Shown: positions 14,707 to 60,958 of the stretch, piece after piece
Numbering within the stretch: the first letter of the stretch is position 1
How the letters are laid out: every line of letters begins with the position of its first letter
Source: a virus
Virus record (IMG/VR): IMGVR_UViG_3300045996_002303
Span: 1-60,958 of that record
Length of the DNA stretch: 60,958 nt
Reading direction: 5' to 3' (one strand)
Notes under the pieces: generated by a model
Seen by the model: the letters and a program-made list of their open reading frames with translations, nothing else
The model's database searches: none
What the model was told of the DNA's origin: nothing
Translations under genes and position numbers: made by a program

Positions 14707-14742
14707 AAGAATTCCTTTCATCAAATATACTGAAAGTTCAAT

Positions 14743-17290: not shown

Positions 17291-17546
17291 TGCTTACCTC
17301 CTTGTATTTGGCGAGTATTCCTAATAACTTACTTTTGTAGGTTCCATTTTCCATCCACCCTACAATGCAATCAATTTGGTCAATTGTGTCTTGCGCCCTC
17401 TCTGCCTCATGTAGTGCGCCTTCCTGATATCCCTTAACTTTATCGTCATTGTAAAACTTATTGCTTCCGTTGTATGGAACAACGAAGCCGTACCTGTCAG
17501 CGTCCGCATTAATTCGAGTGAGGGTTTCTTTACTTAGGTTGCTCAT
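17283..17546 (-). CDS. Hypothetical early protein
   Basis: An 87-residue acidic protein (SKETLTRINADADRYGFVVP, EGALHEAERAQDTIDQIDC). No domain recognised. It shares one base with the upstream DUF1508-like gene and overlaps the next gene, consistent with an operon. Confidence 0.5.
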   Translation of the reverse strand: MSNLSKETLTRINADADRYGFVVPYNGSNKFYNDDKVKGYQEGALHEAERAQDTIDQIDCIVGWMENGTYKSKLLGILAKYKEVSNG

Positions 17547-17830
17547 TACAGATAGCTTTTAAGTTCTAAATCTGGTTTGCTGTGGTCGTAGTATGGAATC
17601 AATTCATAAGGCTTCCCACCTAAGAATATTTCCGCAGCAACCAATATGCTTTTCTTTGCATTCCCCTTCCGCGTATACGTCTCGCTCGATCGCGCTATGA
17701 TGCGGCCGTTCTTAGAAACTATATTCCAATACCATTCAGTTTTGCCCTGGTAGCCTGTCCCTTTTTTAATCGGCTTCCAGTTGTACGACTTGTGCAAGTG
17801 GATGCCTGGTTTGAGTTTAGTGTTTTTCAA
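17546..17830 (-). CDS. DUF1508 (YegP-like) protein
   Basis: A 94-residue protein whose core WYWNIVSKNGRIIARSSETY followed by TRKGNAKKSI matches the DUF1508/YegP repeat, a small alpha/beta module found in bacteria and phages. One repeat copy is present; bacterial members usually carry two. The function of the family is not known. Confidence 0.65.
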   Translation of the reverse strand: MKNTKLKPGIHLHKSYNWKPIKKGTGYQGKTEWYWNIVSKNGRIIARSSETYTRKGNAKKSILVAAEIFLGGKPYELIPYYDHSKPDLELKSYL

Positions 17831-18191: not shown

Positions 18192-18499
18192 GGCGCTACC
18201 CTCCTCTTACACCCCCACACAGTATACTCCGGCCCGATCGTTATCCATCTCTTACGCCAGAACCTCAGATGCTTGCCGGTACATACATTATCCTTATACA
18301 CACAATACCCGTCGATCGAGTGCGTGAACGCCGGCGGTTCATGCGAGATGAGGATACGGGAGGGGAGGGTGTCGAGGGTGGTAGCCGACTTTATACCCCA
18401 CCGCTCAGGGTCGAACCTGCGCATGTAAACTGTATCGGGCACCTGGCTGAACCCGTCCAGCGAGCCGGAGAAGATCCAGAGAAGGAGGAGTTTTTTCAT
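18188..18499 (-). CDS. Small secreted/exported protein
   Basis: A 103-residue protein with an N-terminal signal peptide (MKKLLLLWIFSGSLDGFSQ, likely cleavage near residue 19) and a basic, Trp/Arg-rich mature part. An exported product in the early operon could act at the envelope, for example in superinfection exclusion, but this is only inferred from export. Confidence 0.55.
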   Translation of the reverse strand: MKKLLLLWIFSGSLDGFSQVPDTVYMRRFDPERWGIKSATTLDTLPSRILISHEPPAFTHSIDGYCVYKDNVCTGKHLRFWRKRWITIGPEYTVWGCKRRVAP

Positions 18500-18543
18500 G
18501 AGTTTGCTTTTTATTAGGTTATCAATCGGGTACGGATTAGTTT

Positions 18544-18951
18544 TTAATCGTGTTCGTATTCTTCCTTTTCGATTGTTCCATCACGATTCACGGTTATCTC
18601 CATGTGATCACCAAAAAGGTCTTTGTAGAATTCATCAGGAACGGACTGAAGGATATCTGATAGTTCAGCATATACAGCCTTCTTGTCCTCAATCCCATAA
18701 ACGGAATCATCATAGTAATCGACGCCATTTATTTCAAGTGAGCTATAATCGTTACTTACACCAAAAACACATTCATCGCCATCATTGAAATAGGGTGTGT
18801 ATTGGCGCCATTGAAACTTTTCAACCCACTCGTGTTTCGCAAAGAAGTCTTTGAACAAGTCAGGAAACTGCTTTTGCAATTCTTCGCATAGTTGCTTTCT
18901 CTTTTCATCGAAGGCCGCGATCTCTGATTTAATTTTTTCAATCAGTTCCAT
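18544..18951 (-). CDS. Acidic hypothetical protein
   Basis: A 135-residue acidic protein starting MELIEKIKSEIAAFDEKRKQ with a Tyr/Asp-rich middle (DVYYD-like, VDYYDDSVYGIEDKKAVYAE). The ATG at 18951 is preferred; the longer form would need a TTG start at 18960. No domain recognised. It starts just after the DUF6915-like gene. Confidence 0.5.
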   Translation of the reverse strand: MELIEKIKSEIAAFDEKRKQLCEELQKQFPDLFKDFFAKHEWVEKFQWRQYTPYFNDGDECVFGVSNDYSSLEINGVDYYDDSVYGIEDKKAVYAELSDILQSVPDEFYKDLFGDHMEITVNRDGTIEKEEYEHD

Positions 18952-20861: not shown

Positions 20862-21138
20862 TACCTAACGGTGATTTGTTTGAATAAATAGCAGGCGGGC
20901 GCTCTAGCTTCTTAACATCGTCTTCTAAAAACTTCTTAGGATCATCAATGCCTTCGCCGGTTAATCTGGCAAAAAGTATTTGCGCCTTCGCTGATTCAAC
21001 GATTACCTTCCCTACATCGGAAATAGCTTTACTTCTTTCTATTTCAGTTTTCATTTGCTCTGGTGTAAGATCTTCGTTGCCTAACCTTTCAAGGGCAGCA
21101 AACATGTGATCTCTTAGATCGCTAATTTTATTTTTCAT
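20845..21138 (-). CDS. Conserved phage early protein
   Basis: A 97-residue helical protein from MKNKISDLRDHMFAALERLG, followed by EDLTPEQMKTEIERSKAISD and VGKVIVESAKAQILFA, a pattern found widely in early regions of phages, often next to an HNH gene as here. The function is unknown. ATG at 21138 is preferred to 21183, which lies well inside the HNH gene. Confidence 0.65.
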   Translation of the reverse strand: MKNKISDLRDHMFAALERLGNEDLTPEQMKTEIERSKAISDVGKVIVESAKAQILFARLTGEGIDDPKKFLEDDVKKLERPPAIYSNKSPLGIASGE

Positions 21139-21751
21139 TTGATAACTGTTTAAGGCGTTTATTAATTTGGCGGTTAAGGGCACCTCTTAATTGGATAATT
21201 TTAAATATTTCAGGGCCAAAACGGAGGGCGCTGTTTCTTATCATTAGCTCGGCATCACTCACGATTTCCAGATTATCAAGGTTGCAATTAAATGGATTGC
21301 GATCTTTGAAAACTATTTTGTGACCGCGAGGAATGGCGCCATTATTTTGCTCCCATATATACCTTTGTAATGGCATGCGCTTGTTTACGTCTAGGTATAT
21401 AACCAATACCGCTTTACCTTCTTTCTCCCATTTTACAATGTCAAGGGGGTTATGTGTATGCCATGGCCTGTTTCCCTTTTGATACTGAGTAGCATGTAAC
21501 CGGGCCATACCCTCTTTTGTCATCCATTCCGTTTGTCTTTTCCCCTTATTGTGCGGAACGTTACCCTTTTTAAACCCCGCATCTTTATAAAACCCTCTTT
21601 TTATTTTTGCGGGCACCTGCAAGCCGAGTAATTCATATCGTTGCCTAATGGTTGGCCCCTGTCGGTCGAGCAGTCGACCTATCTCACAACTTGGTAAGCT
21701 CAAGTAGTGATCTTTAATAAATTGGTCCTCTATAGCGTTAAACCGTTTCAT
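21128..21751 (-). CDS. HNH endonuclease with N-terminal HTH
   Basis: A 207-residue protein: an N-terminal DNA-binding part (FNAIEDQFIKDHYLSLPSCE, GRLLDRQGPTIRQRYELLG) and an HNH-type core with LQRYIWEQNNGAIPRGHKIV then FKDRNPFNCNLDNLEIVS. This arrangement is common in phage early regions beside the 97-residue protein that follows. It likely nicks or cuts DNA; a homing role is possible. Confidence 0.75.
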   Translation of the reverse strand: MKRFNAIEDQFIKDHYLSLPSCEIGRLLDRQGPTIRQRYELLGLQVPAKIKRGFYKDAGFKKGNVPHNKGKRQTEWMTKEGMARLHATQYQKGNRPWHTHNPLDIVKWEKEGKAVLVIYLDVNKRMPLQRYIWEQNNGAIPRGHKIVFKDRNPFNCNLDNLEIVSDAELMIRNSALRFGPEIFKIIQLRGALNRQINKRLKQLSNEK

Positions 21752-45858: not shown

Positions 45859-47946
45859 TTAATACTTCAACACCACCACATTATAGTCTGCCGCCGATGA
45901 GTAGTTGGCGGAACCAGTAGATACATTGTGAACGCGTAATGTAACTGTATTGGTAGCCGACACAAATGCATCGTATACTTCACCGTTACTATATGCCGCC
46001 AGCTTGCTAACTGTAACAGGGTCACCCACTGCTGCACCGGTTACCGTGAAACTCGTCGATGTGCTGCTACCTGCGCCCACAACGCCGGGTGTCCAGTTGG
46101 TCGTTCCTTTCAATGCGCTGATAGTAGGAGTTGCCCATGACGGCACACCGGTTGCCAGCGTTAATACATCACCGTTCGATGCAGCGGCCAGCCGAACAAA
46201 GTTTCCGCTTCCGTCGCGGTAATATATATCACCGGTGGCATCGCTGCCGAGGTTGATTTTAACGCTGCCTGAAACTTCAAAGGCGGCAGTATTAGTGTTA
46301 TGCAGTGTACTCATCTGCCCGATACGGAAACCGGTTGCATCCGAGCGAAAGCCGAGATTTGTGGATGTATTGCCAGAACCAAAGAACAGAAAATTACCGG
46401 TGAAGCCTATTGGTTTCGCAGGCGTTGCGCTGCCGCTGTAATTGTTAATGGTAAATGATTCTGCAAGCGCTATAGAGGTGCCAGGCACATTGCCTGATGC
46501 GCCGCTATTGTATCGTATGATCTCGGTATATTGATTACCGCCAACGTCCTGCGCTAATATCTGTGTGGTATATGCACCATTTCCGGCACTGTTGTTTTCT
46601 ATCGTTGCTATGGCTCCGGCATTCGCGTTATTCGATACGTTAAAGTGAGAACCAGTAAAGCCAACCGAGCTTGGCCCCGCAACTACCCTGGTTGACCCTC
46701 TGAGTGTTCCGCTGTAATTTCCGTCTACGCCATACACCGTTGACCATCGACGGGATGGGTCACCTAATAAAGTAGTGTTATTGCTTTCTGATCTGAGCGT
46801 TATACCATCTTCAATACGAATTTCCGATGGCCCAATGTCCATTGTGGGTATAATCGCCGCATCGAATCCCATCAATGAAAAGGTTCTGGTACCACTTGAT
46901 ACCGTTCCGGCTAATGTCCCCGTTACGCCTACCGTGGAATCATACACTAACCCGAATCCTTTTGTCTCTGTTAAATTCCAGCTACTACCCGCACCTGTTA
47001 TAGAAGGTTGAGTGCTGAAATAAACGCGATCATCCGCCGGTGATTTAAGGTATAGCCTTGAAACAGTATGGTAGAAGTCATAGCTTCCCGCATCCCGGAT
47101 TGTATAACTACTTAACCTTTTTTGAATACCCGCTCTCGTTATATAGAACTCGTGTTTCTCTGCATCAATTGTATCGCCGACGGTTGGTATATAGGTATGC
47201 TCCCAGCTTTCGCCGATGCCCGGTTCACCTACCTGGTATTGACCGCCGCCGCTATTTATATTCCAGCCCATATGAAAAACGTTATCCCTGCGCGTTACCC
47301 CGCCGAACTTGGTAGCGCCTAAGCCAAACAGTAATGGCGGCGGATCACCAGTGCGATCCAATGGCTTCACCTCCATAAAGTAACCGCCTTTTGCATCGCC
47401 GTCGGCTGCAGTCGATACACTATCGAATACATACATACGATCAGTCACATTACCCAAATCCATCGTCTCCTGCAAAGTGCCGCCCGCGCCGGCAATTGCG
47501 TCTGCCAAATCCGAGGGCGTGACGAGTTCGGAAGTGTCGGCTTTGATTGTTATCGTATTGGCTGTTGTGGTACTGTCTATATCTACACCATACCCCGGAT
47601 TGATTCGCTTAAAATTGCCACCTGGTGTTGCAAGGAGAGCGTAACCGGTGCCGATGTTGTTGAGGGTAACGGAAGTGCCGCCTCCACCAGCCCCTGGTAT
47701 CACCAAGGTGTCAAGACCAATCACAATAGTGCTATCATTAAGAACCTTTGATCTTATGAATCTTGTTAACCCGCCACCTACGTTTGTAAGCAACCCGAGG
47801 CTATCCTTTGTCTTATTGATAACGTAAAGCTCACAAGTTCCGTTTTGCTTCATTATCTTAACCGTATCAAAACGTAAGTAGCCGGTTGTCTGGCCGGCTA
47901 CTTTCAAGGCTGCGAAAAGCAGCACAAACATTATTATCCTTTTCAT
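45859..47946 (-). CDS. Fibre-like protein with signal-peptide-like N-terminus
   Basis: A 695-residue beta-rich Gly/Ser/Thr protein. The C-terminal module (WTPGVVGAGSSTSTSFTVTG to AVGDPVTVSKL) is typical of phage tail-fibre adhesin tips, and the middle has irregular Gly-rich repeats. It begins MKRIIMFVLLFAALKVAGQ, which reads as a signal peptide, unusual for a virion protein. It could be a fibre loaded through the periplasm, or a mis-placed start. It lies between the tail tube and the lysis genes. Confidence 0.6.
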   Translation of the reverse strand: MKRIIMFVLLFAALKVAGQTTGYLRFDTVKIMKQNGTCELYVINKTKDSLGLLTNVGGGLTRFIRSKVLNDSTIVIGLDTLVIPGAGGGGTSVTLNNIGTGYALLATPGGNFKRINPGYGVDIDSTTTANTITIKADTSELVTPSDLADAIAGAGGTLQETMDLGNVTDRMYVFDSVSTAADGDAKGGYFMEVKPLDRTGDPPPLLFGLGATKFGGVTRRDNVFHMGWNINSGGGQYQVGEPGIGESWEHTYIPTVGDTIDAEKHEFYITRAGIQKRLSSYTIRDAGSYDFYHTVSRLYLKSPADDRVYFSTQPSITGAGSSWNLTETKGFGLVYDSTVGVTGTLAGTVSSGTRTFSLMGFDAAIIPTMDIGPSEIRIEDGITLRSESNNTTLLGDPSRRWSTVYGVDGNYSGTLRGSTRVVAGPSSVGFTGSHFNVSNNANAGAIATIENNSAGNGAYTTQILAQDVGGNQYTEIIRYNSGASGNVPGTSIALAESFTINNYSGSATPAKPIGFTGNFLFFGSGNTSTNLGFRSDATGFRIGQMSTLHNTNTAAFEVSGSVKINLGSDATGDIYYRDGSGNFVRLAAASNGDVLTLATGVPSWATPTISALKGTTNWTPGVVGAGSSTSTSFTVTGAAVGDPVTVSKLAAYSNGEVYDAFVSATNTVTLRVHNVSTGSANYSSAADYNVVVLKY

Positions 47947-50045: not shown

Positions 50046-51179
50046 CTAAACAGGATAAGCGTAAGCAGGACCATTGTAGGCAGTGTTTCCGATGAAGTAC
50101 TTCAGCGTACCATTGGTGCCTTCCAGTTCATCACCGGTATCATAGCCGTTGTCGGGCTGAACCCACAACGCGTAGTCTTTACTGATGATGCCCTGCCATC
50201 CGCGATCTACGAATACCCCTTCTGAAATTTCAGTTCGGCAATCGTAGTACTTCAGCTGCAGATCCATTCTCAGATCATTCAAACAGTCATCGGGACAACC
50301 GAATTCCTGCACAGGCAACGGTAATGTTGTGAATATGCTTCCACCGGGCTTCTGACCAGCAAAAGCGCCCACGTATTTGTTACGGCCGATAAACTTCACG
50401 CTTCCAGGAGCGAACACGCCAATGGCATTGTTACCCCAGATACTTTGCGTGTCTTTATCGAAGAAGAAGCGAGGGAGACCAACTTTACTGGTATCAATAC
50501 CGGCAGCATTGCAACATGCGAGCGCCTGGGCTTTCTCGTAGGCCGCGAACAAGCCGCCACCCACGATACAAGGCTCTCCGCAGATTTCGTTTTCCTGAAG
50601 ATCCTGCATCATATCAACGATGCCGTTATCAAGAATAACCTTGCTGCCATCCTGGTTGATGTTGATCACTTTTCCGGAAGCGCTACCATTGGCCACATTC
50701 ACGCCGAATTCAGTAGCCATCGCGGTAACCAAAACCTGATTGATCTTCTTCAAAACAACGTTGGCGCCTTCTACAACCAGGTCGTACACTTCCTGCATCG
50801 CCTGGGTAGCAGGTTGCCCCACCGATACCATCCGGCTGGCATCTTCGCAATACCGGCTTACCTGATCATCGCTGATATGAAAGGAGTACTGCGCATGTGA
50901 TAGCGCCGGCACATTCCATTCGAGATAACCGGGCTGCGCATTGATGGTGCAATCGTCGGTAGTTTGCACGTCCGAAACCGTTGGCCGACGACGATATTTA
51001 ACTACCATGCTGCGCTGATGACCTCCCTGGTAAGATTCGTTCAGTGGGGACACCGAGCTATTTGCGCAACAAAACAACATCGCGAGGAAACCGGTAACAT
51101 GCATCTTTGAGCCCGGTGCATTATTACCAGCTATCTCCTTAATATGCTTAAGGAGGCTAGGGCAAAAACCATTTGCCAT
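50046..51179 (-). CDS. Major capsid protein
   Basis: A 377-residue protein located between scaffold and connector genes, with a strong leftover terminator after it. HK97-fold-like features: long N-terminal helix, VGQPATQAMQEVYDLVVEGA spine helix, and the C-terminal GTNGTLKYFIGNTAYNG. No internal protease is nearby, so scaffolding by the upstream protein is likely. It assembles into the shell. Confidence 0.75.
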   Translation of the reverse strand: MANGFCPSLLKHIKEIAGNNAPGSKMHVTGFLAMLFCCANSSVSPLNESYQGGHQRSMVVKYRRRPTVSDVQTTDDCTINAQPGYLEWNVPALSHAQYSFHISDDQVSRYCEDASRMVSVGQPATQAMQEVYDLVVEGANVVLKKINQVLVTAMATEFGVNVANGSASGKVININQDGSKVILDNGIVDMMQDLQENEICGEPCIVGGGLFAAYEKAQALACCNAAGIDTSKVGLPRFFFDKDTQSIWGNNAIGVFAPGSVKFIGRNKYVGAFAGQKPGGSIFTTLPLPVQEFGCPDDCLNDLRMDLQLKYYDCRTEISEGVFVDRGWQGIISKDYALWVQPDNGYDTGDELEGTNGTLKYFIGNTAYNGPAYAYPV

Positions 51180-51210: not shown

Positions 51211-52164
51211 TTACATCACGCTCGGCTTCTCGAGATCCGCTAAGGCCTGATCTGCTAAAGACGATAACGCGTGGTTTACAGCATTCCCATTGCCATTCCC
51301 ATTTTGATTCTGGTTCTGGTTTTGGCGCTGTTGATTGCCGTTGTTGTTTACATGATTCCTGGCACCGTTACCATTCCCATTTTGATTCTGGTTCTGGTTT
51401 TGGTCAGATACTTTGAGAATTTTGTCGCGGGACATTATTTTGTCGAGATAGCTCTTAGGAGTGAGCAAACGGTTGTCCTCGCCGAAGAAATTTGAACCGT
51501 CTTTTTTTCGTAATGCAAGTTGTCCGGATTCGTCTACGGTGAATTCCGCAGCATCCGCGTTTAATGATTTATTGATAATGGCTTTCAAAGTGATATCTTT
51601 CACCTCTCCGTCCAATTCGTCATATATTGTTTTGTAGCCGCCAAGAATATTGCGTAGCGCATAGGACATGTCTTTATCCTTCAGCTTCTTTTCGTACTCA
51701 GCACGGATGCCGGCTTCTTTGTCCTTTTCGGTGCGTAACTGGCTATTCAGTTCATTGATCTGCTGCTGCAGTGAATCCTTTTCGCCTTTACCGCTGTTCG
51801 CTTTCTTTTCTTCCAGATCTTTTATTTTGGCAGCAAGCAGAACTGCGCGTTTGGTCGAACTCTTTTCGGCCAGGATTTCATTTTTGATTTCATCCGGCAG
51901 TTTGTTATCGTCAATAAACCTGGTCAATTCCTTATCCAAACCGTCATACGCCTGACTGAAATAATGCCCCTTAATTGCTGAGTGATTGTTTTTAGCAGCA
52001 TCAAGCGAAAGCAGGCCGTTGTCAATACCGGTAATTAATGCATCAGGAATGCTGATATTAGCCAACTCAGGGGCGGCCAACAATGGTTTAATTGCTTCGT
52101 CATCAATCTTAACACCGGCTTTAATTGCCAATTCTTTCAAAAAATCTGCTGCTGTTTTGGGCAT
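51211..52164 (-). CDS. Scaffolding protein
   Basis: A 317-residue acidic, helical protein upstream of the capsid gene: charged coiled coil (NSGKGEKDSLQQQINELNSQ, RTEKDKEAGIRAEYEKKLKD), and a C-terminal Asn/Gln/Gly-rich tail (QNQNQNQNGNGNGARNHVNN) ending in a helical capsid-contact-like segment. The tail contains two 33-bp identical DNA copies. It guides capsid assembly. Confidence 0.75.
   Translation of the reverse strand: MPKTAADFLKELAIKAGVKIDDEAIKPLLAAPELANISIPDALITGIDNGLLSLDAAKNNHSAIKGHYFSQAYDGLDKELTRFIDDNKLPDEIKNEILAEKSSTKRAVLLAAKIKDLEEKKANSGKGEKDSLQQQINELNSQLRTEKDKEAGIRAEYEKKLKDKDMSYALRNILGGYKTIYDELDGEVKDITLKAIINKSLNADAAEFTVDESGQLALRKKDGSNFFGEDNRLLTPKSYLDKIMSRDKILKVSDQNQNQNQNGNGNGARNHVNNNGNQQRQNQNQNQNGNGNGNAVNHALSSLADQALADLEKPSVM
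51293..51325. repeat. 33-bp direct repeat in the scaffold gene, copy 1
   Basis: Identical to 51371-51403. It encodes part of the repeated Asn/Gln-Asn/Gly block and begins CCATTCCC and ends TTTTGG on the plus strand. The copies are 78 bases apart and could change copy number by slippage. Confidence 0.8.
51371..51403. repeat. 33-bp direct repeat in the scaffold gene, copy 2
   Basis: Second identical copy of the repeat at 51293-51325, in frame (78-base period, a multiple of three), so the reading frame is kept if a copy is gained or lost. Confidence 0.8.
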
Positions 52165-52173
52165 AATTATAGT

Positions 52174-52257
52174 TTAACGTCTGGGTTTGGAAGGCTTCGG
52201 CCTTGGTTTCGTTCCACCACCGCAGGTACGGCAGTATAAAATGTTATTCAATTTCAT
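52174..52257 (-). CDS. Tiny Cys/Pro-rich peptide
   Basis: A 27-residue peptide (MKLNNILYCRTCGGGTKPRP plus seven basic/Pro residues) with a CxxC. Its ATG overlaps the end of the upstream gene. Short zinc-binding-like peptide; unknown role. Confidence 0.4.
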   Translation of the reverse strand: MKLNNILYCRTCGGGTKPRPKPSKPRR

Positions 52258-52532
52258 TTTTGAAATGATTTAGGCTTTGGCCCCGGCTTCTTGCGATCAG
52301 TATTTTTTACCGATTCGTTCGTTACAACCGGTTGCACATCGTTATTATGTACCTCCTCAATTGTCTTACGCAGGTGTTGAGGCAGATTCCGGTTCTGCTC
52401 CATCAGCATCTTTTTTGCAGACAGCGGCAGCGCTGTTTCTTTATAAACAGGCATGCCGTTTACAATTTTTGGCCTATTGCCATCTTCTGTAACCGGAGAA
52501 ACTACTCTGAGATATGAGGAAGTGAAATACAT
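52254..52532 (-). CDS. Small head-region protein
   Basis: A 92-residue protein (YLRVVSPVTEDGNRPKIVNG, then LPLSAKKMLMEQNRNLPQHL) with a basic Pro-rich tail. It is encoded between MuF and scaffold in the gene order, and is now separated from MuF by the inverted cassette. The function is unknown. Confidence 0.5.
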   Translation of the reverse strand: MYFTSSYLRVVSPVTEDGNRPKIVNGMPVYKETALPLSAKKMLMEQNRNLPQHLRKTIEEVHNNDVQPVVTNESVKNTDRKKPGPKPKSFQK

Positions 52533-52630
52533 AATTGGGATTGCAATTAATTATTACAGTAAAATTATATTTTCATTTTTGATTGAAAATTCTATAACTT
52601 CAGTATTTTGCATCAAATTGGTGTAGTTAA

Positions 52631-52813
52631 ATGGCTAAATCCATCACATTGAGGAACATCCCTAGTGATATTTTTCAGATATTATTACGGGAACAGCATA
52701 AAGTAAAGGCCCACCGAAATATTGGCCGGTTTGGGATAGAGCAAACTGTTTATAAGATTATCCGGGATAACGAACGCTGTAATAAGGAAAATGAAAAGGA
52801 GGATAAGAAATGA
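52631..52813 (+). CDS. Ribbon-helix-helix regulator of the glycan cassette
   Basis: A 60-residue Arc/MetJ-like RHH protein (ITLRNIPSDIFQILLREQHK, then IGRFGIEQTVYKIIRDNE). First gene of the plus-strand cassette, divergent from the late operon; it could repress both directions at the 98-base gap upstream. Confidence 0.7.
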   Translation: MAKSITLRNIPSDIFQILLREQHKVKAHRNIGRFGIEQTVYKIIRDNERCNKENEKEDKK

Positions 52814-52971
52814 AGCGTTTTTTCAAATATCTCCTATGCATATTACTTATAAACTGGATTCTTACGCAAACTATTGATGCTTATAGTCACCCTGATATGA
52901 CTAGCACAAGAAGGTTCTTGAGAACACCAAAGACATTTATTTGGGATTTCACCTATAATAATCAGAAATGA
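52810..52971 (+). CDS. Small membrane-anchored protein
   Basis: A 53-residue protein with an N-terminal membrane segment (YLLCILLINWILTQTI) and a basic tail. Both its start and its end overlap its neighbours by 4 bases, indicating translational coupling into the GT2 gene. Perhaps a membrane anchor for the cassette enzymes. Confidence 0.5.
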   Translation: MKRFFKYLLCILLINWILTQTIDAYSHPDMTSTRRFLRTPKTFIWDFTYNNQK

Positions 52972-53714
52972 ATTTATCCCTCTGCATAACAACATTTAAT
53001 AGGTTCGAACTACTTAAAGAATCCTACGCCCAGGTGATTGACGATACACGGATCTCAGAAATAATAATTGTTGACGATTGCAGCACTGAGCCCGGCATAA
53101 AAGAGAAGGTTAATGGCTTGGCCGGCGGGAAGGTGAAAGTTTACCACCAGGCGCAGAACAGAGGTATGAGCAGGAATAAAGCTGATGCGATTAGCTATGC
53201 ATCAAATGAGTGGTGTATTATTTTTGACAGCGATAATGTGATTGGGAAAGATTATTTGGATGCGTTTTTCAATTACGCGGGCGGGGCAATGGAGATAATA
53301 AAAGAAAAAGAAAGGTATATATTTTGCCCTGATTTCGCTAAACCGGATTTTGATTACAGGGCTTATAGGCAAGGAGGTGGTGGTTCAAGACATATTTATA
53401 GGGCAGGAATATATGGAAGCTCAGAAGCAAGGGTAGAAATAAAACACGACGACTTTAATTGCCTTCTTAACACCTGCAACTACATAGTTCATCGTGATAC
53501 CTATCTGAAGATATACCAGTTCAACCCAACGCACATAGCCAGCGACACAATTTGGCACAATTATAACCATTTAAAAGCCGGTGGTAGATTTTGGATTGTC
53601 CCTGGCATGCAATACTACCACCGCGTCCACAAAGGCAGCGGTTTCCTGCAAGGTGTTGATTACAATATGCGTACGCAGGCGGAGGTAAGAAAAATGATAA
53701 TGGAATTAAAATAG
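52968..53714 (+). CDS. Family 2 glycosyltransferase
   Basis: A 248-residue GT2 enzyme. Nucleotide-sugar-binding start (LSLCITTFNRFELLKESYAQ), IIIVDDCSTE (D36, D37) and the DxD motif IFDSDN (87-89), then acceptor-site region with NYIVHRDTY. It transfers a sugar onto a glycan acceptor, cytoplasmic. First enzyme of the cassette. Confidence 0.9.
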   Translation: MNLSLCITTFNRFELLKESYAQVIDDTRISEIIIVDDCSTEPGIKEKVNGLAGGKVKVYHQAQNRGMSRNKADAISYASNEWCIIFDSDNVIGKDYLDAFFNYAGGAMEIIKEKERYIFCPDFAKPDFDYRAYRQGGGGSRHIYRAGIYGSSEARVEIKHDDFNCLLNTCNYIVHRDTYLKIYQFNPTHIASDTIWHNYNHLKAGGRFWIVPGMQYYHRVHKGSGFLQGVDYNMRTQAEVRKMIMELK

Positions 53715-53718
53715 CACT

Positions 53719-54063
53719 ATGATTAACCTACAACCAGAACAACTAAAGGCTTATTTCAATCCGGGGCAAGAACTGGAAATGCAGGATCAAATAAAGGCTT
53801 ATTACGCAACGCCGAAGCTGCCCGGCTTTCACCTTATATGCATAATGCAGCAAGGCCGTAATACTATGTATCATGTCGCCTTTTCCACTGAACTACCCGA
53901 CACCGGAAAGCCGTTTATAATTGAGGTGTTATTCGAGGAAACTCGGCGTATATCTTATAAAAACTTTCTTTTAAAAGCTAATGCAAAGACAGAGGAACCT
54001 TGGAATAATCCAAACCGATTAATTGCGCTTGCTATGCATAACCAGAAAAACGGTATTGTATGA
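53719..54063 (+). CDS. Hypothetical cassette protein
   Basis: A 114-residue protein (LQPEQLKAYFNPGQELEMQD, YHVAFSTELPDTGKPFIIEV). It overlaps the next gene by 4 bases. No domain recognised. It resembles the small phage-type proteins interspersed in this cassette. Confidence 0.45.
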   Translation: MINLQPEQLKAYFNPGQELEMQDQIKAYYATPKLPGFHLICIMQQGRNTMYHVAFSTELPDTGKPFIIEVLFEETRRISYKNFLLKANAKTEEPWNNPNRLIALAMHNQKNGIV

Positions 54064-54299
54064 GAATGTGGGTTACCGAAATACTAGCTATTGATCCCAA
54101 TGACGGGGTAATGAAATTATGGGCAGGCCCTAATGTGCCAGGTATTAATCACGAGGACGCGGAAAGGTACTGCCAGCAAAACGAATTAGGTTATTGCCAT
54201 GTTTTGGGTGAATTAGTTGCAGAAATACCTTGTAAAGAAGGAACGAATGAGCCGGATATGGGGAAGATTGTGGATTATGAGAAAATTCAAATTAATTAA
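54060..54299 (+). CDS. Small hypothetical protein
   Basis: A 79-residue acidic protein (VTEILAIDPNDGVMKLWAGP, VPGINHEDAERYCQQNELGY). Conserved-looking but not identified. It is encoded in the cassette without a membrane or enzymatic motif. Confidence 0.45.
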   Translation: MRMWVTEILAIDPNDGVMKLWAGPNVPGINHEDAERYCQQNELGYCHVLGELVAEIPCKEGTNEPDMGKIVDYEKIQIN

Positions 54300-54305
54300 T
54301 TACAC

Positions 54306-54740
54306 ATGGCATACGAAGTTAAGCCGTTAATTGAACTGTCTGAATTAAAAATTGGAAATTGTTTATTATATAAGGGCGAAGTAGTGTATATCACCTCGTT
54401 ATCAATGGATATTGATGACGAATATGAGGATATGATTGGATTCTGTAAACTCGGTGAAACAAGTAACGAAATTGCGGCATGGAACAGGTCGTTATATAAC
54501 GATCTTGAAAGAATTCCACTTACTTATGAATGGGTTGTAAAATTAGGAGTCCACTTTAATTATGGCTATGAATTCGCTAAAATATTTAACTTATATATCG
54601 AAAATGGCGAACCGGTTTGTAAGGTTTACATACAACAATACAGCGAAGGCCGGGAACCACTTCCAGATATAAAATATGTACATCAATTTCAGGTATTATT
54701 TGCTGCGCTAATAGGAAAAGAACTAAAAGCTACCCAATGA
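54306..54740 (+). CDS. Conserved Bacteroidetes-phage protein
   Basis: A 144-residue protein with LSELKIGNCLLYKGEVVYIT, PLTYEWVVKLGVHF and a C-terminal VHQFQVLFAALIGKEL, a pattern known from many Bacteroidetes phage and plasmid genes of unknown function. It overlaps the GT11 gene by 4 bases. Confidence 0.6.
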   Translation: MAYEVKPLIELSELKIGNCLLYKGEVVYITSLSMDIDDEYEDMIGFCKLGETSNEIAAWNRSLYNDLERIPLTYEWVVKLGVHFNYGYEFAKIFNLYIENGEPVCKVYIQQYSEGREPLPDIKYVHQFQVLFAALIGKELKATQ

Positions 54741-55495
54741 TTCAACCCAAACTTTTCGCCCAGCTTGGCAACCAGTGTTTCATGATAAGTGCGGCCATTG
54801 CCCATGCTCTCAAAATGGGCACCACTTATTCCATCCCTAAAAAGACTATAAGCCCGGGCATTTGGCGAACTTATTTCAGTCATCTTCCGGAAACAAAGAG
54901 CGCCACGTTACACTATTACAAAGAGAAGCGGCATTGTTATGATCCGCTGCCGGAGGTTGATAGTCTCACCATTGAGGGGTATTTCCAAAGCGAAAAGTAC
55001 TGGCATGGTTATAAAGAGCAGATTGCGGAGGCGCTGGGGTTCGTTCATAAGCCGGCAGATTATGTGGCTGTGCATGTGCGCAGGGGGGACTACTTGAAAT
55101 ATCCTGATCAGTTTCCGGTGATGCATTTAGAGTACTACAAAAAATCGATTGAACTCCTAGCATTACAAGGATATTCAAAGTTTCGTGTTTACAGCGATGA
55201 TATTAGCTGGTGTAAACAATTTATCAAATGCGGGCTGGCAGATCACACTAAGTTTGATGACATATGCCGTTTTGAATATAGTGAGAATAAAGACCCACTC
55301 ACAGACATCAGGGATATGTATAATGCAAATGCTTTCATTATTGCAAACTCGTCTTATAGCCTTTTCCCAGCATTATTGCGAGGCAATAATCCGGCGGTTG
55401 TTGCACCAGACACGAAGCACTGGCCATGGTGCGGTGTTAACGGTAGCGAGGCGGTTGATTTGATGCCGGAAAGGTTTATAAAAATAAAAGCATGA
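54737..55495 (+). CDS. GT11 alpha-1,2-fucosyltransferase-like enzyme
   Basis: A 252-residue enzyme of the GT11 (FUT1/FUT2/WbcG-like) family. Motifs: AQLGNQCF (residues 9-15), the GDP-fucose site HVRRGDYLK (114-122), and SYSLFPALL near the end. It adds fucose (from GDP-fucose) to a galactose-type acceptor; the acceptor here is unknown. No GDP-fucose synthesis genes are in the genome, so the host must supply the donor. Confidence 0.85.
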   Translation: MIQPKLFAQLGNQCFMISAAIAHALKMGTTYSIPKKTISPGIWRTYFSHLPETKSATLHYYKEKRHCYDPLPEVDSLTIEGYFQSEKYWHGYKEQIAEALGFVHKPADYVAVHVRRGDYLKYPDQFPVMHLEYYKKSIELLALQGYSKFRVYSDDISWCKQFIKCGLADHTKFDDICRFEYSENKDPLTDIRDMYNANAFIIANSSYSLFPALLRGNNPAVVAPDTKHWPWCGVNGSEAVDLMPERFIKIKA

Positions 55496-55701
55496 GCAAA
55501 CCCTACCCAGATTATGCAGCCAGGCAATGGCCGAAGGGTGAAAAGCCGGATCTGCGCAGGATAACTAAATGCAGCGACCCCAAAGCATGGTATTCGGCTA
55601 TGGTTGGGAAAACTATAACCGTTCATTACTTCTGCACATTCGGGTGCTGGGATGTTAGCGGCAGGTGGTTGGATTATTACGATTTAAGTGAACCTTTATA
55701 A
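55492..55701 (+). CDS. Small basic protein
   Basis: A 69-residue protein (AARQWPKGEKPDLRRITKCS, then TFGCWDVSGRWLDYYDLSEP). It overlaps the fucosyltransferase end by 4 bases. A small protein of this type also occurs in phages; the function is unknown. Confidence 0.45.
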   Translation: MSKPYPDYAARQWPKGEKPDLRRITKCSDPKAWYSAMVGKTITVHYFCTFGCWDVSGRWLDYYDLSEPL

Positions 55702-55708
55702 ATTTTGT

Positions 55709-56275
55709 ATGCGTACATACTCAGATATAGAACAAATGGCAGGGCAGGATTACTCAATTGGTCTTACTGCTCATTATAAACCACTCGCCCAGTTTTTAAA
55801 AGAACGAGGGTATAAAACAGGTATTGAGATCGGTACCGCTTATGGAGGTAATGCTTATCACCTATTGCAAAACACTGAACTTGACAATCTAACCTGCATT
55901 GACCCTTATCTGTATTATCCGGCTATGCCCGGTTTTTCTTGTCAGGAGGAATACGACAAGCTTCACCAATTCGCCATAGATCGCCTTTCTGGATTTCCTA
56001 ATGCCTCTATTGTTCGGATTGATAGTTATACTTTTTACAATAGCGTTGCCAAAGATTTTAAGTTTGACTTCGTTTTCCTCGACGGCAGCCATGATTATGA
56101 AGATGTGAAATGGGAGTGCGAAAACTATTCTAAGATCATTAAACCTGGCGGCGTTCTGTCCGGCCACGACTACAATATTTTTGAGGGTGTGAACAAAGCG
56201 GTTGATGAGTTTGCGAAAGCAGAAGGCAAGCCGGTTGAGTTGTTGCCTGGTAATATTTGGTATATAAATTATTAA
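55709..56275 (+). CDS. SAM-dependent methyltransferase (class I, Methyltransf_24-like)
   Basis: A 188-residue enzyme. SAM motif I TGIEIGTAYGGNAYHLL, acidic motif CIDPYLYYPA, and the late motif FVFLDGSHDYEDVKWECENY followed by IIKPGGVLSGHDY. In a glycan cassette the likely acceptor is a sugar hydroxyl. No DNA-methyltransferase signature (DPPY/NPPY) is seen. ATG at 55709 preferred. Confidence 0.82.
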   Translation: MRTYSDIEQMAGQDYSIGLTAHYKPLAQFLKERGYKTGIEIGTAYGGNAYHLLQNTELDNLTCIDPYLYYPAMPGFSCQEEYDKLHQFAIDRLSGFPNASIVRIDSYTFYNSVAKDFKFDFVFLDGSHDYEDVKWECENYSKIIKPGGVLSGHDYNIFEGVNKAVDEFAKAEGKPVELLPGNIWYINY

Positions 56276-56277
56276 AC

Positions 56278-56835
56278 ATGACACTTCACGACCTCGCAGT
56301 CAAATACGGAACTGATAAGTTGCAGCACGGCTATATCCCCTTTTACGAAATGTCCCTGCCAAAAGAACCTAAACGTATTTTAGAGATCGGCGTAAAAGAA
56401 GGGGCAAGCTTGGGGGTGTGGGCGGAATACTTCCCTAATGCGGAAATTCACGGCCTTGATCTTTTTATAGAAAATGAAATCAGGAATGTCTATTACAATA
56501 TAGATCGTTTATCTGAAGGTAAACTTAAGTTCGACCGGTTTACAATGCACCAAGGCAACCAATGTGATTGGCAAATATTGGAACTATTACGCAATCTTGA
56601 TTTCGACGTAATAATAGACGACGGCTCCCACAATAGCCGTGACCAATTGATGACCTTCTTTGGGTTGTATAATGGTAAACACTATTTTATAGAAGACTTA
56701 CAATGCAATGATGAAGAATTTTACAGCCAGGGTTTGCCGGCGTCGATGCGGGCAGCAAATATATTCAGAGGTTTGCCTATTAATGGAATTGTCAAGGATT
56801 GTCAATCGCCAATTGTTTTAATTTCGAATTTATGA
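56278..56835 (+). CDS. SAM-dependent O-methyltransferase (MycE/CmcI-like)
   Basis: A 185-residue enzyme with motif I RILEIGVKEGASLGVWAEYF, and VIIDDGSHNSRDQLMTF, the IDDGSH motif of sugar O-methyltransferases such as macrocin/mycinamicin enzymes. It lies 2 bases after the previous methyltransferase gene, and a second ATG region at 56278 is used. Likely modifies a sugar. Confidence 0.8.
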   Translation: MTLHDLAVKYGTDKLQHGYIPFYEMSLPKEPKRILEIGVKEGASLGVWAEYFPNAEIHGLDLFIENEIRNVYYNIDRLSEGKLKFDRFTMHQGNQCDWQILELLRNLDFDVIIDDGSHNSRDQLMTFFGLYNGKHYFIEDLQCNDEEFYSQGLPASMRAANIFRGLPINGIVKDCQSPIVLISNL

Positions 56836-56987
56836 TTAAAGTAGGGGACATAGTTTTTCATAAACTTAGTAAGCTACTTTTTCGGTGTGAAAATAAAAAA
56901 CATGAAAGGTGGATGAACATGAACGAATTCTACCATAAAACAGAGTTAAAAGAAATCGACTACAATAAAATAGAATCATGCTCCTAA
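56832..56987 (+). CDS. Small protein
   Basis: A 51-residue protein (VGDIVFHKLSKLLFRCENKK, HERWMNMNEFYHKTEL). It overlaps the preceding gene by 4 bases and the FkbM gene by 10. No motif; real by spacing. Confidence 0.4.
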   Translation: MIKVGDIVFHKLSKLLFRCENKKHERWMNMNEFYHKTELKEIDYNKIESCS

Positions 56988-57604
56988 ACTTCCCCACCCT
57001 CGTCAATAAATACTCCATCAAAGCCAACGGCTGCATCCATGTAGGCGCTCATTTCGCGCAAGAACATGCCGATTACGTTGCGGCCGGCATAAAGCGTTTC
57101 GTATATATCGAGCCCTGCGCAGCCGCTTTTAATATTCTAAAAAATAAGTTCTCCGCACATCATCATATACAATTGTTCAATGTAGCGTGTGGTGAGGTAG
57201 AGTGTGAACAAGTCATGTATACTGGCAGTCAGAACGAAGGACAGAGCAACAGTCTGCTGAAGATGGATAAACACTTGAAGATCCACCCGGGTATAACTCT
57301 GCCGAATACCGAGATTGTAACGGTAAAGAGATTGGACAGTCTTGGCCTTGCTCACAAAGGATATCAATTACTGGTGATGGATTGCCAGGGTTTCGAAGGG
57401 CGGGTATTAAAAGGCGCCAAAGAAACACTGAAGCAGGTTAATTACGTGTATACTGAAGTGAATAAAGATGAAGTATATCAAGGTTGTACGCTGGTTAATG
57501 AACTTGACGAGTTACTGCATGAATTCGAACGTGTAGAAACGGGTCAATGGGTTGGCGGCATGTGGTCTGACGCATTGTATATTAGAAAAACCCGACTGGG
57601 ATGA
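56978..57604 (+). CDS. FkbM-family methyltransferase
   Basis: A 208-residue FkbM-type enzyme: GCIHVGAHFAQEHADYVAAG, IEPCAAAFNILKNKF, and LLVMDCQGFEGRVLKGAKET. FkbM proteins O-methylate sugars or natural products. Third methyltransferase of the cassette. Its end overlaps the exostosin-like gene by 4 bases. Confidence 0.85.
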   Translation: MLLNFPTLVNKYSIKANGCIHVGAHFAQEHADYVAAGIKRFVYIEPCAAAFNILKNKFSAHHHIQLFNVACGEVECEQVMYTGSQNEGQSNSLLKMDKHLKIHPGITLPNTEIVTVKRLDSLGLAHKGYQLLVMDCQGFEGRVLKGAKETLKQVNYVYTEVNKDEVYQGCTLVNELDELLHEFERVETGQWVGGMWSDALYIRKTRLG

Positions 57605-58461
57605 TCAGAAAAACGACATACCCGAGAACACATGTGGCGCACAGGCCAAAAACAATTCTGCCTACCCCGTTAGAGTTCCGGATTAAACATCCATTCCCAT
57701 ACCCATCTGACAACCTGCACGAGTTCGAACGATGGTTTTTCGACAATACTTTGCCCGATGAAATAACCGGAAGGATTTATGTTCCTATATTCTGGACAGG
57801 TTATTGGGTAAGTAATAATTATGGTAAAAAAGAACGCGGCCGCAACAATATGCAGCGGTTTATTGACAACCTGCCTCGGGATAAAAAGTACTTTACCATA
57901 TGCCAATACGATGATGGCCCAATGGTTGATTTTAAAGACCTCGACATCGTTGTGTTTGGTATGTCTGGAGGCCGTATTGATTACCCTATCCCTTTACTTT
58001 GCCAGCCTCATGGATTTAAGTTCGATTGTAAGCGAGATATATTCGCATCGTTTATTGGAGGAGACACACACCCAATAAGAAAGGAGCTGGTGAAGCAGTT
58101 TGCCGGCGTGAAGGACTGTGTAGTGAACTTTAAGAAAGTACCACTGAAAGAATACTGTAATATCTTGGCCCGGACAGTGTTCGCATTATGCCCGCGCGGG
58201 TACGGAAAAAGTAGCTTTAGGATTGCGGAGGCAATACAGTATGGGGCGATTCCGGTATATGTGAGCGATGAGTTCGTGTTACCTTATAATGACGATTTCC
58301 CTGGTTTAGTTGTTAACGGTAACACGAATGTTCTTGAACTAATATACGGGCACGGCTGTCCCAATTATGCTAAACAATTCAGGCAACAAATAGAGCAGGC
58401 TAAACGCCATTACACTTACGAGGGCTGCAAAAAACGTATACTCGAAGAAGTTAACAAATGA
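57601..58461 (+). CDS. Exostosin/GT47-like glycosyltransferase
   Basis: A 286-residue enzyme with the exostosin signature FALCPRGYGKSSFRIAEAIQ YGAIPVYVSDEFVLPYNDDF, preceded by a Rossmann-like part (IASFIGGDTHPIRKELVKQF). The family adds glucuronic acid or related sugars in polysaccharides. It is coupled by 4-base overlaps to its neighbours. Confidence 0.8.
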   Translation: MIRKTTYPRTHVAHRPKTILPTPLEFRIKHPFPYPSDNLHEFERWFFDNTLPDEITGRIYVPIFWTGYWVSNNYGKKERGRNNMQRFIDNLPRDKKYFTICQYDDGPMVDFKDLDIVVFGMSGGRIDYPIPLLCQPHGFKFDCKRDIFASFIGGDTHPIRKELVKQFAGVKDCVVNFKKVPLKEYCNILARTVFALCPRGYGKSSFRIAEAIQYGAIPVYVSDEFVLPYNDDFPGLVVNGNTNVLELIYGHGCPNYAKQFRQQIEQAKRHYTYEGCKKRILEEVNK

Positions 58462-58823
58462 CTGTACTGCACAAAATAGATATCCCTAACATTGATCTGG
58501 AAAACCAGAAAGTAACGGATTTCACTGAATTGTCATTGGAGATCCGGGACAACAGTGTCATGTATAGCGTCCGGTTTTATGCCGATGAACCAAAGGACGA
58601 AAATGATAAGGAGTTAGGATGGGAGAATGTTTTTAATTCATTTAAAACGGTGGCAGCTAAACAAAATATTGCCGGCATTGAAATAAGCTGGTTAAACCAT
58701 GCAAAGAAATGGTCTGTAATGATTCTTGTTAACGGATTTTCCAATGATATAAAAATGTACTTCAAAAGAGAGGGTGAAGCAAAAGCCTTATTTGATAAAC
58801 TACACAAATGGCTGTATGAATAA
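58458..58823 (+). CDS. Hypothetical cassette protein
   Basis: A 121-residue protein, beta-rich (TDFTELSLEIRDNSVMYSVR, GIEISWLNHAKKWSVMILVN) with a helical C-terminus. No family recognised. It overlaps the GT7-like gene start by 8 bases. Confidence 0.45.
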   Translation: MTVLHKIDIPNIDLENQKVTDFTELSLEIRDNSVMYSVRFYADEPKDENDKELGWENVFNSFKTVAAKQNIAGIEISWLNHAKKWSVMILVNGFSNDIKMYFKREGEAKALFDKLHKWLYE

Positions 58824-59436
58824 GCTATCAATAATAATTCCCTACCGTAACAGGGCTCAACACTTGGCTAAATTCCTTAAACATTACAGGCCAAAGTTTC
58901 CAGATGCGGAATTCCTAGTAATTGAGCAATCGCTAAATAAACAGTTCAATCGGGGGTTAATCAAGAACATCGGAGCCTTACAATCAGAAGCCGACTACTT
59001 CATCTTCCACGATGTTGATATGCTGGTGCAGGGACCGGCTAATTACTCATATCCTGAACACCCGACCCACCTGGCAACCCAGGCTAGTCAGTTCGGTTGG
59101 CAAATGCCACACGAAAAGTATTTTGGTGGAGTAGTTGCGTTCAACCGCGCCGATTTTGAAAAGATTAATGGTTATAGCAACCAGTTTTGGGGATGGGGTG
59201 GCGAGGATGACAGCCTTTATTATTCAGTATTAGCCAATGAATTACAGATAGAAAGGCGGGAGCATCGTTATTTATCTCTCCCCCATCCAAAAGACAACCC
59301 CATAGGTTTCGATCCTGCAAAAATGGCTCAGGCGAAAAAGCCAAGAAAGGCAAAAGACGGCCTGAATAACTGTAAATTTAAGATAATCGCAGAGCGCCCA
59401 ATCCCGCAGGGTAGAATTATAACAGTTGATATATAG
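58816..59436 (+). CDS. beta4GalT/GT7-like galactosyltransferase
   Basis: A 206-residue enzyme with the beta-1,4-galactosyltransferase layout: IIIPYRNRAQHLAKFLKHY, FIFHDVDMLV (DVD at 66-68) and GGVVAFNRADFEKINGYSNQ FWGWGGEDDSLYY (GWGGEDD at 126-132). It would transfer galactose (or GalNAc) in UDP form. Soluble; no anchor. ATG at 58816 chosen because the motif starts there and not at 58774. Confidence 0.85.
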   Translation: MNKLSIIIPYRNRAQHLAKFLKHYRPKFPDAEFLVIEQSLNKQFNRGLIKNIGALQSEADYFIFHDVDMLVQGPANYSYPEHPTHLATQASQFGWQMPHEKYFGGVVAFNRADFEKINGYSNQFWGWGGEDDSLYYSVLANELQIERREHRYLSLPHPKDNPIGFDPAKMAQAKKPRKAKDGLNNCKFKIIAERPIPQGRIITVDI

Positions 59437-59471
59437 AATTATTTGTACTTTTTGGGCCTAAAACCCAAAAA

Positions 59472-59861
59472 ATGAGACACTTCTACTTATTCATTGCAAC
59501 AGTTATCCTGGCTGGATGCGCAAACAGAAAAGCTGAAATCGTTGAAGAAATTAAGGCCACAAAAGCTAAACTATATGATGCTGAATCTCAAAGAAGTAAA
59601 TATAAATCAGCATCTAATAAGCTAAGCGCATACCATACCGCACTCGACGCAAGCAGGAAATATAAGTCTAAGCAAATGGAAATGGACGCACAGGCTTATA
59701 AAGAAGGGTATGAAATGGCGATTCAGCATTTAAAAGATGTTTCCCCAAATATTCTTAAGGATCGAAAAAAACTGGATTCTGTTGCTTTAAAGTATGAACT
59801 AAAAACATGGGAACTACAACACCAACTTGATTCATTAGAGCTAGAGCTAAAAAAATACTAA
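59472..59861 (+). CDS. Coiled-coil lipoprotein
   Basis: A 129-residue lipoprotein (FIATVILAGCANRKAEIV, lipobox AGC) with a charged coiled coil (EEIKATKAKLYDAESQRSKY, KKLDSVALKYELKTWELQHQ). Last gene of the cassette, facing the late operon. A role at the cell envelope or as an o-spanin-like protein is possible. Confidence 0.6.
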   Translation: MRHFYLFIATVILAGCANRKAEIVEEIKATKAKLYDAESQRSKYKSASNKLSAYHTALDASRKYKSKQMEMDAQAYKEGYEMAIQHLKDVSPNILKDRKKLDSVALKYELKTWELQHQLDSLELELKKY

Positions 59862-60040
59862 CCCTCCTCTTTCTCAATTTCAATATAACAACTCGCACAT
59901 GCTATCTGTTCTAAAGGAGTTGCTTGCATGCTTATTACCGTATGTAATTGAAACTGTTTCCAATAAATAGGCTCATGACATACTATGCACGGCTCGCCTG
60001 TACATGGTACCTCTCTCCATTCTAATTCAAAATTGATCAT
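59858..60040 (-). CDS. Small zinc-finger protein
   Basis: A 60-residue protein with PCIVCHEPIYWKQFQLH and IACASCYIEIEKEE, a CxxC...CxxC plus His zinc-finger-like pattern. It is the last minus-strand gene before the inverted cassette; its ATG overlaps the MuF stop. Convergent with the lipoprotein gene (4-base overlap). Confidence 0.5.
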   Translation of the reverse strand: MINFELEWREVPCTGEPCIVCHEPIYWKQFQLHTVISMQATPLEQIACASCYIEIEKEEG

Positions 60041-60958
60041 TAACTATTTGCTGACTTCCAGGCTTTGTAGGCCGATGTCGCATAAACGCGCTCTTTATCA
60101 GATTGCGGCACCTGACGCTCGTTGACGGGTCGTATACTATGCCCGCACCGGTACCCTCCGCGTCTGATAAAGAAATTGCTTGCATCAGTTCCCGGTATCA
60201 TGCCGGAAGGTAATCCGGTTTTTTCATAAATCATAACTGGCTCGCGCTTACCGGTCTTTTTATTGATGTATGTTAACCCCTCGGCTCGGAGAAGTGCCGG
60301 CACTTCGCTAATGTGAAAGTAAGGTCGGTCAGTCATCGCATCGCAGAAAGGGCGGGTTGTTAATATGTCTGTGTTATCGTATTTAAACCATTCATAACCA
60401 AGGTCATTAGAGACAATCTGAGTGTATTGGTTGCTATATTGATTAACTGCATCAGTAGTTATTTGCCCAACATATTTTTCTAATGTTCCAGGTGTCTGCG
60501 TACTCACCAGGTTCTCCCATAATTGTTCTGTTAATTTTTTATAACTCCCCCCTGTTGTTATATTGGTCCGAAGGATATCGGCGATAGGTTCAGCGATATT
60601 GGCGCCAATCCCTGCTTCTGTGAGCTTAGAAACGGTATCGGTGATTGCCTGTTCTTTAATTGCCAGTAATAAGGGCTTGGGCTTAAATGTGGACTCAACG
60701 GCCCGCCAATAATTGTTCTGCAGGCTGGTTATCTCATTAAACGATTTGGCGAAGTCCTTTACCTCTGCTTTATACTCCTCTGTAAGTATTATCCGATTCA
60801 GTTTATTTTTAATAGAATTGATTAATGACAGGTTCTTGACTGTTGTTTTTATCCGGCCATCCTGAAGATCCAATTTCCGTAAATCTTCCTGAAATGAATC
60901 GTAGATATCCTTCTGAATAGACGGTATACGTTTATTCATATTCGATATAGAGTCGTTG
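60040..60958 (-). CDS. MuF-like minor head protein (continues at position 1-159)
   Basis: Most of a 316-residue protein. After circularisation it begins at position 159. The C-terminal half has the MuF region: TTRPFCDAMTDRPYFHISEV ... GTDASNFFIRRGGYRCGHSI RPVNERQVPQSD. MuF-like proteins sit in the head near the portal and may be injected or help DNA packaging. It ends next to a small zinc-finger gene. Confidence 0.82.
   Translation of the reverse strand, partial: NDSISNMNKRIPSIQKDIYDSFQEDLRKLDLQDGRIKTTVKNLSLINSIKNKLNRIILTEEYKAEVKDFAKSFNEITSLQNNYWRAVESTFKPKPLLLAIKEQAITDTVSKLTEAGIGANIAEPIADILRTNITTGGSYKKLTEQLWENLVSTQTPGTLEKYVGQITTDAVNQYSNQYTQIVSNDLGYEWFKYDNTDILTTRPFCDAMTDRPYFHISEVPALLRAEGLTYINKKTGKREPVMIYEKTGLPSGMIPGTDASNFFIRRGGYRCGHSIRPVNERQVPQSDKERVYATSAYKAWKSANS
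60832..60958. repeat. Terminal direct repeat, right copy
   Basis: Identical to 1-127; see that entry. Removing one copy leaves a 60,831-bp circle in which the MuF-like gene is uninterrupted. Confidence 0.97.

Follow-up and report, generated by a model that had tools for sequence, protein, structure and literature searches.

Particle glycosylation is on record for few phages, and what it is for outside animals is largely an open question. Virion glycosylation is described for the mycobacteriophages Che8, Corndog, and Myrna (Freeman et al., 2023, as cited in PMC12363180 and PMC12619734), where, according to these sources, capsid and tail proteins are the proposed substrates of glycosyltransferases (GTs) encoded by both temperate and lytic phages. 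The bacterial flagellin glycosylation islands of Enterobacteriaceae lie beside structural-protein genes, mix GTs with methyltransferases (MTs), including FkbM, vary greatly among close relatives, are absent from many, and are subject to horizontal transfer (PMC4875605), while the gtrABC operons of P22-like and Shigella phages contain an interchangeable specificity part and recombine between phages (PMC3688519). The subject of this study is a 7.2-kb island of glycan-modification genes at positions 52631-59861 of the virus record IMGVR_UViG_3300045996_002303, the whole 60,958 bases of which are referred to here as the window. We propose, with a probability of roughly 0.55, that this exchangeable island builds a methylated oligosaccharide on virion proteins. 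By analogy, it may work like mycobacteriophage virion glycosylation while being built like the flagellin glycosylation islands. Glycan genes of phages were already known; the new element is an antisense island that is exchanged in blocks and accompanied by a conserved late GT, a combination that we did not find described across a phage family in the open-access papers searched.

The window carries an exact 127-base terminal repeat and thus represents a circular, probably complete assembly. Its island forms a compact operon on the plus strand, with about 16 open reading frames (ORFs), inserted between MuF and scaffold genes, and the flanking structural genes on both sides are on the minus strand. 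Four GTs (GT2, GT11, GT47, and GT7) and three S-adenosylmethionine (SAM) MTs are identified by Pfam and PHROGs matches, which bear out the coordinates, plus-strand orientation, and enzyme content given in an initial annotation of this DNA. The genes are tightly packed, with overlaps at 11 of 15 consecutive junctions (8 of them by 4 bases), gaps of 2-6 bases at three, and a gap of 35 at one. The base composition of the island is that of the rest of the genome.

All genes of the island lie on the plus strand, and relatives are denoted below by G and L numbers. The sole GT2 (52968-53714, 248 amino acids [aa]; PF00535, E 1.6e-18), also present in G001, G002, and G003, is soluble, with a maximum 19-residue hydropathy of 0.54. 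The fucosyltransferase-type GT11 (54737-55495, 252 aa; PF01531, E 1.6e-17) precedes two MTs, a variable Methyltransf_24-type enzyme that is absent from G001 and G002 (55688-56275, 195 aa; PF13578, E 2.2e-13) and a conserved one found in G001, G002, and G003 (56278-56835, 185 aa; phrog_21658, E 3.7e-24), whose Pfam match is below cut-off (E 0.002). An FkbM-type MT (56978-57604, 208 aa; PF05050, E 4.8e-15) is followed by an exostosin-type GT47 (57601-58461, 286 aa; PF03016, E 1.1e-13) and a beta-1,4-galactosyltransferase-like GT7 (58816-59436, 206 aa; PF02709, E 1.1e-24). The GT7 contains both Pfam GT7 domains and intact DVD, FGGV, and WGGEDD motifs; a search with its profile hit mammalian B4GALT1 structures with E 3e-32 over residues 16-220. 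Relatives of the GT11 at ~30% identity occur in Synechococcus phages S-SM2 and S-SCSM1, and a relative of the GT47 occurs in S-SKS1. These carriers are large cyanophages, and otherwise the portal, capsid, GT7, GT8-like gene (discussed below), and island DNA of the window have no match among GenBank phages.

Such a set of enzymes could be imagined to glycosylate or hypermodify phage DNA bases as a guard against restriction, and DNA-glycosylating phage GTs are known from work cited in PMC12619734. This use is very improbable, however, as the known substrates of GT7, GT11, GT47, GT2, and FkbM enzymes are sugars or proteins, and scanning the remaining ORFs of the window with Pfam yielded no base-hydroxylating or nucleotide-hypermodification gene. 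Hydropathy analysis found no membrane segment in any island enzyme and no island ORF with several, and no island ORF has a Pfam match to a flippase (GtrA) or a polyprenyl-phosphate GT (GtrB). A gtr serotype-conversion operon was ruled out, since searches for GtrA and GtrB were negative. Unlike gtrABC operons (PMC3688519), the island consists of soluble enzymes, with several GTs and MTs, and is situated among structural genes; it shares with them an interchangeable part, seen as block replacement in the distant lineage described below.

A portal-based scan yielded 80 loci from at least 144 relatives, and the 54 loci with useful downstream DNA were examined at the MuF-scaffold junction. Two or more GT or MT genes follow MuF in antisense orientation in 10 of the 54 (e.g., L101, L104, L105, L114, L116, L120, and L125), and an eleventh locus, an incomplete contig, has a single antisense GT or MT gene. 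An antisense island at this junction is also recorded for L115 and L117, while L103 and L112 carry glycan genes in the same orientation as the late operon. About 15 of the 54 loci have no insert, with 226-606 bases between MuF and scaffold, and the first gene alone remains, with or without a small ORF, in G004, L126, and L135. Because the same flanks occur without the island in other relatives, the island is best seen as inserted at a hot spot, where it is variable and dispensable. The flagellin glycosylation islands, some of which include sugar-biosynthesis genes, are low-GC on average (PMC4875605), whereas the window island has no such genes and matches its genome in composition.

The closest relatives, G001 and G002 (capsid 89% identical) and the 21.6-kb contig L006, which takes in only the GT47 end, have the island at the same junction and in the same antisense orientation. 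Its core order is preserved as first gene, GT2, 114-aa gene, 79-aa gene, GT11, MT, FkbM, GT47, and GT7, although the 114-aa and 79-aa genes are exchanged in G001. In addition to the absence of the Methyltransf_24 gene from G001 and G002, there is a second FkbM gene in G002, HNH-type endonuclease genes are found inside the G001 and L006 islands, and the last gene of the relatives encodes a different secreted protein. The more distant G003 (portal 53%) retains the full order of first gene-GT2-GT11-MT-FkbM/GT47-GT7, with FkbM and GT47, which are adjacent separate genes in the window, forming one 462-aa ORF (16177-17565 of G003, which is also L095). The pN values of island genes are 0.08-0.35 against pS values of 0.69-0.89, with synonymous saturation about that of the capsid and portal genes. 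Low pN in the face of saturated pS indicates an old island core that is subject to purifying selection; recent acquisition of the core is ruled out by the same saturation. The initial annotation had also considered a misassembled host locus, which is ruled out by the genome-like composition and by independent assemblies, their portals down to ~50% identical, that carry the antisense island at this same junction. Repetition of one gene order in separate assemblies goes far beyond what chance would give. The view that these genes are a phage-encoded glycan-modification set is upheld; the set is conserved, under purifying selection, and present in independent assemblies.

Cargo at a recombination hot spot need not serve the phage's own glycans, and the island might be a generic moron for host metabolism or defense. 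Two loci contain unrelated genes downstream of MuF, namely PAPS-reductase-like and helicase-like genes in L142 and an ADP-ribosylglycohydrolase-like gene in L139 (all by eye), and HNH endonuclease genes reside inside several islands, both in favor of this reading. Nevertheless, the order GT2-GT11-MT-FkbM/GT47-GT7 is kept across portals ~50% identical and is accompanied by strong purifying selection, both of which point to a dedicated pathway and make generic cargo improbable.

Exchange of enzyme blocks, which the initial annotation did not note, was most apparent in distant phages with portals ~27% identical to that of the window phage, in which an antisense glycan island lies between two structural genes at a neighboring junction. 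Eight phages with related portals were compared; for six of these portals, identity to the L028 reference was 95-100%. The eight vary little in the 5' block of the island, while at least four types of 3' block occur among them: GTb-GT7; GTc-FkbM-GT2; MT-FkbM-GT2 plus a fourth enzyme; or MT-GT-GT1-FkbM. At the DNA level, L046 and L051 are 88-95% identical in the flanks and only ~50-56% identical in the 3' enzyme block, while L061 and L042 show the reverse, with a GT7-GTb block that is 97-99% identical and flanks that are mostly 86-92% identical. These block and flank identities imply block exchange by recombination. In the first GT of the L028 lineage, the C-terminal half is constant and the N-terminal half varies, a hint of a fixed acceptor combined with a changing donor; this pattern is loose in GT47 and GT11.

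A further GT gene, missed by the initial annotation, lies outside the island, on the late (minus) strand at 1990-2865, where it adjoins the portal gene. It has no credible Pfam match and no PDB sequence match to GT8, and is GT8-like by predicted fold only. AlphaFold (AF2) modeling with four sequences gave a predicted local distance difference test (pLDDT) score of 39, and a 16-sequence alignment raised this to 86, with a predicted template modeling (pTM) score of 0.88. Foldseek searches with the latter GT-A model returned glycogenin (E 6e-9) as well as UGGT, Skp1 galactosyltransferase, and LgtC, and the aspartates of a DxD motif, D90 and D92, are invariant in the 16-sequence alignment. The gene was present in 15 of 15 records tested of the window lineage, with or without the island, and adjoined the portal wherever its position was examined. 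Distant lineages lack it, their late strand carrying a GT25 gene instead. For a GT in the late operon, the simplest explanation is a target that is present during particle assembly, and the GT8-like enzyme, a candidate for addition of the first sugar, probably belongs to the same system as the island.

Conservation of GTs alongside virion genes, seen here in the GT8-like gene (15/15) and in the fixed structural junction of the island, is shared with the mycobacteriophage type as far as the cited sources describe it. By the same accounts, the present set differs in being larger (four GTs and three MTs in addition to the late GT8-like enzyme), in having a glycan that is predicted from genes, in its antisense position among structural genes, in block exchange between close relatives, and in its hosts.

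In the proposed mechanism, the GT8-like enzyme beside the portal would act in the cytoplasm and place the first sugar on a structural protein. The glycan would then be extended and branched by the soluble GT2, GT11, GT47, and GT7 enzymes with host sugar nucleotides, and FkbM and the other MTs would cap the resulting short oligosaccharide on virion proteins. The island would set the "glycotype" of the phage, because the block recombines between phages with nearly the same particle. The benefit might lie in shielding from receptors, defense systems, or predators, or in altered adsorption. We infer the acceptor, the order of the steps, their expression, and their benefit. More tentatively, at somewhat less than even odds, the system may be organized in two tiers across a large uncultured phage family, in which priming of a structural protein falls to a fixed late enzyme (GT8-like or GT25) and the exchangeable antisense island determines an outer methylated glycan. 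Phages with nearly identical particles would then differ in glycotype, comparable to a bacterial serotype and probably under selection from receptors, defenses, or predators.

Gene content and arrangement lean toward a virion target in several respects. The enzymes have no membrane segments and are accompanied by no flippase or polyprenyl-phosphate GT, a late-strand GT8-like gene occurs in all 15 records or is replaced by a late-strand GT25 gene in distant lineages, and the glycan genes of L103 and L112 are oriented with the late operon. Moreover, G012 and G018 are circular genomes (127-base terminal repeats) with glycan genes in which no tyrosine or serine integrase was detected, which is no proof of a lytic life style. 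Other observations weigh against virion glycosylation. In its antisense placement and separate first gene, the island resembles typical moron loci that prophages express in the lysogen, and the window phage has an integrase. No acceptor protein was singled out, and the fixed-acceptor pattern of the L028 lineage was not found in the GT2 of the window lineage. The GT8-like gene is also carried by phages without an island, and its functional link to the island is one that we infer.

These features raise the alternative of lysogenic conversion, in which a moron expressed from the prophage decorates host surface glycans (lipopolysaccharide, O-glycan, or lipid-linked oligosaccharide of the cytoplasmic face). 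Such decoration would block superinfection or change the surface type, and the terminal lipoprotein or other secreted protein would assist in exclusion. Mixes of GTs and FkbM enzymes are common in surface-glycan loci, integrases are encoded not only in the window but in G001, G002, G011, and G015, and the island is dispensable in the phage family, about 15 contigs having no insert. It is also antisense to the late genes in the window and at least 11 relatives, a placement described as characteristic of prophage accessory loci (PMC7067206), and its variable enzyme content recalls the variable gtrC of serotype-converting phages (PMC3688519). Yet GtrA, a GtrB-type polyprenyl GT, and any membrane enzyme are missing, sense-strand versions exist within the late operon (L103 and L112), circular genomes combine glycan genes with no detectable integrase, and every tested phage of the window lineage has a late-strand GT. 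We consider lysogenic conversion less likely than virion glycosylation but a serious alternative. Diversification is predicted by the virion and surface-conversion models alike.

Near-identical particles with different, reduced, or no islands and a conserved late GT make this family a set of natural experiments. Should the virion be the target, phages would possess a serotype-like system swapped by recombination; a host-surface target would make the island a case of lysogenic conversion without the usual gtr machinery. Its carriers form a large family of mostly uncultured phages. The window encodes a Phage_int_SAM_5/Arm-DNA-bind_5 integrase and a DUF7833 protein, which we take to suggest a Bacteroidota host, and the family as a whole probably infects Bacteroidota. 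Two portal scans of contigs revealed no prophage of this kind in GTDB representative genomes.

The island begins with a 60-aa gene (52631-52813) that remains the first gene in relatives, with identities of 83% in G001, 42% in G002, 37% in G003, and 29% in G004. The initial annotation described its product as a ribbon-helix-helix (RHH) regulator serving as a switch, a role that was not confirmed: the protein is RHH-like by eye only, with no Pfam match at E 0.1 and no PDB match to known RHH proteins, and a profile of the five-member family retrieved only an unrelated PDB entry (E 1.1). The divergent intergenic region ahead of the island is AT-rich and conserved and contains an inverted repeat, TTTTCA-N8-TGAAAA (approximately 52582-52601), which is a candidate operator; its core, TTCA-N8-TGAA, is retained in three phages despite otherwise differing intergenic DNA. 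A scan for sigma-70 promoters and terminators gave no excess over chance. An RHH-type N-terminus (DUF6290/NikA-like, by eye) was noted in a 229-aa protein encoded inside the glycan island of L072 (12769-13458), the C-terminus of which resembles the RNA polymerase alpha-CTD.

The gene list of the initial annotation also lacked at least six small ORFs without an assigned function. They encode proteins of 114 aa (53719-54063), conserved at 69-81%; 79 aa (54060-54299), conserved at 49-57%; 144 aa (54306-54740), a member of the phrog_10066 family (E 2.7e-13) that is also found in other glycan islands; 69 aa (55492-55701), 74% identical in G002 and absent from G001; 51 aa (56832-56987); and 121 aa (58458-58823), 63-72% identical in two relatives. 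The 53-aa product of 52810-52971, previously termed a membrane peptide, is indeed signal-peptide-like but has no counterpart in G001 or G002, the two nearest relatives. Similarly, the 129-aa protein at the end of the island (59472-59861) has the lipobox-like LAGC of the lipoprotein that it was annotated to be, followed by a coiled-coil-like body, but it is an interchangeable last gene rather than a fixed member, being replaced by other secreted proteins in relatives. A 50% identical relative is encoded on the late strand of G002 (4110-4496) between two tail-region genes; the lipoprotein is mobile and possibly related to lysis or exclusion. The G003 island ends in two 106-aa ORFs (18249-18569 and 18626-18946 of L095) that appear Ig-like by eye, have no Pfam match, and could be decoration proteins or acceptors.

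The flanking minus-strand genes comprise a MuF-like gene at the high-coordinate end (60040-60939; 83-87% identity in close relatives) and, at the low-coordinate end, a small gene of the structural strand (52254-52532; 78-80%) that adjoins a 317-aa scaffold-like gene (51211-52164; 85-88%), followed by a capsid-like gene (50046-51179). The MuF-like, scaffold-like, and capsid-like genes have no convincing Pfam match and are named from gene order and relatives. The scaffold-like protein ends in a tail rich in QNQN/NGNG, the length of which differs among relatives.

Additional variation was noted elsewhere in these phages. The 5961-base MuF-scaffold interval of L103 includes, among its sense-strand glycan genes, a GDP-mannose 4,6-dehydratase-like ORF that, judged by eye, would represent phage-borne sugar-nucleotide synthesis, and antisense asparagine-synthase-like, acyltransferase-like, and GT-like ORFs (by eye) lie downstream of MuF in L141. 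A 695-aa protein encoded at 45859-47946 of the window is 79-83% identical to its relatives over the first ~90 residues and unrelated over the remainder, the G003 counterpart being 1748 aa in length; from its sequence, it looks like a receptor-binding or tail-fiber protein with an exchanged body. HNH/NUMOD homing-endonuclease-type genes are present in the window at 9965-10546, 14146-14724, and 21128-21751, and these genes, similar ones being located inside several glycan islands, may aid exchange.

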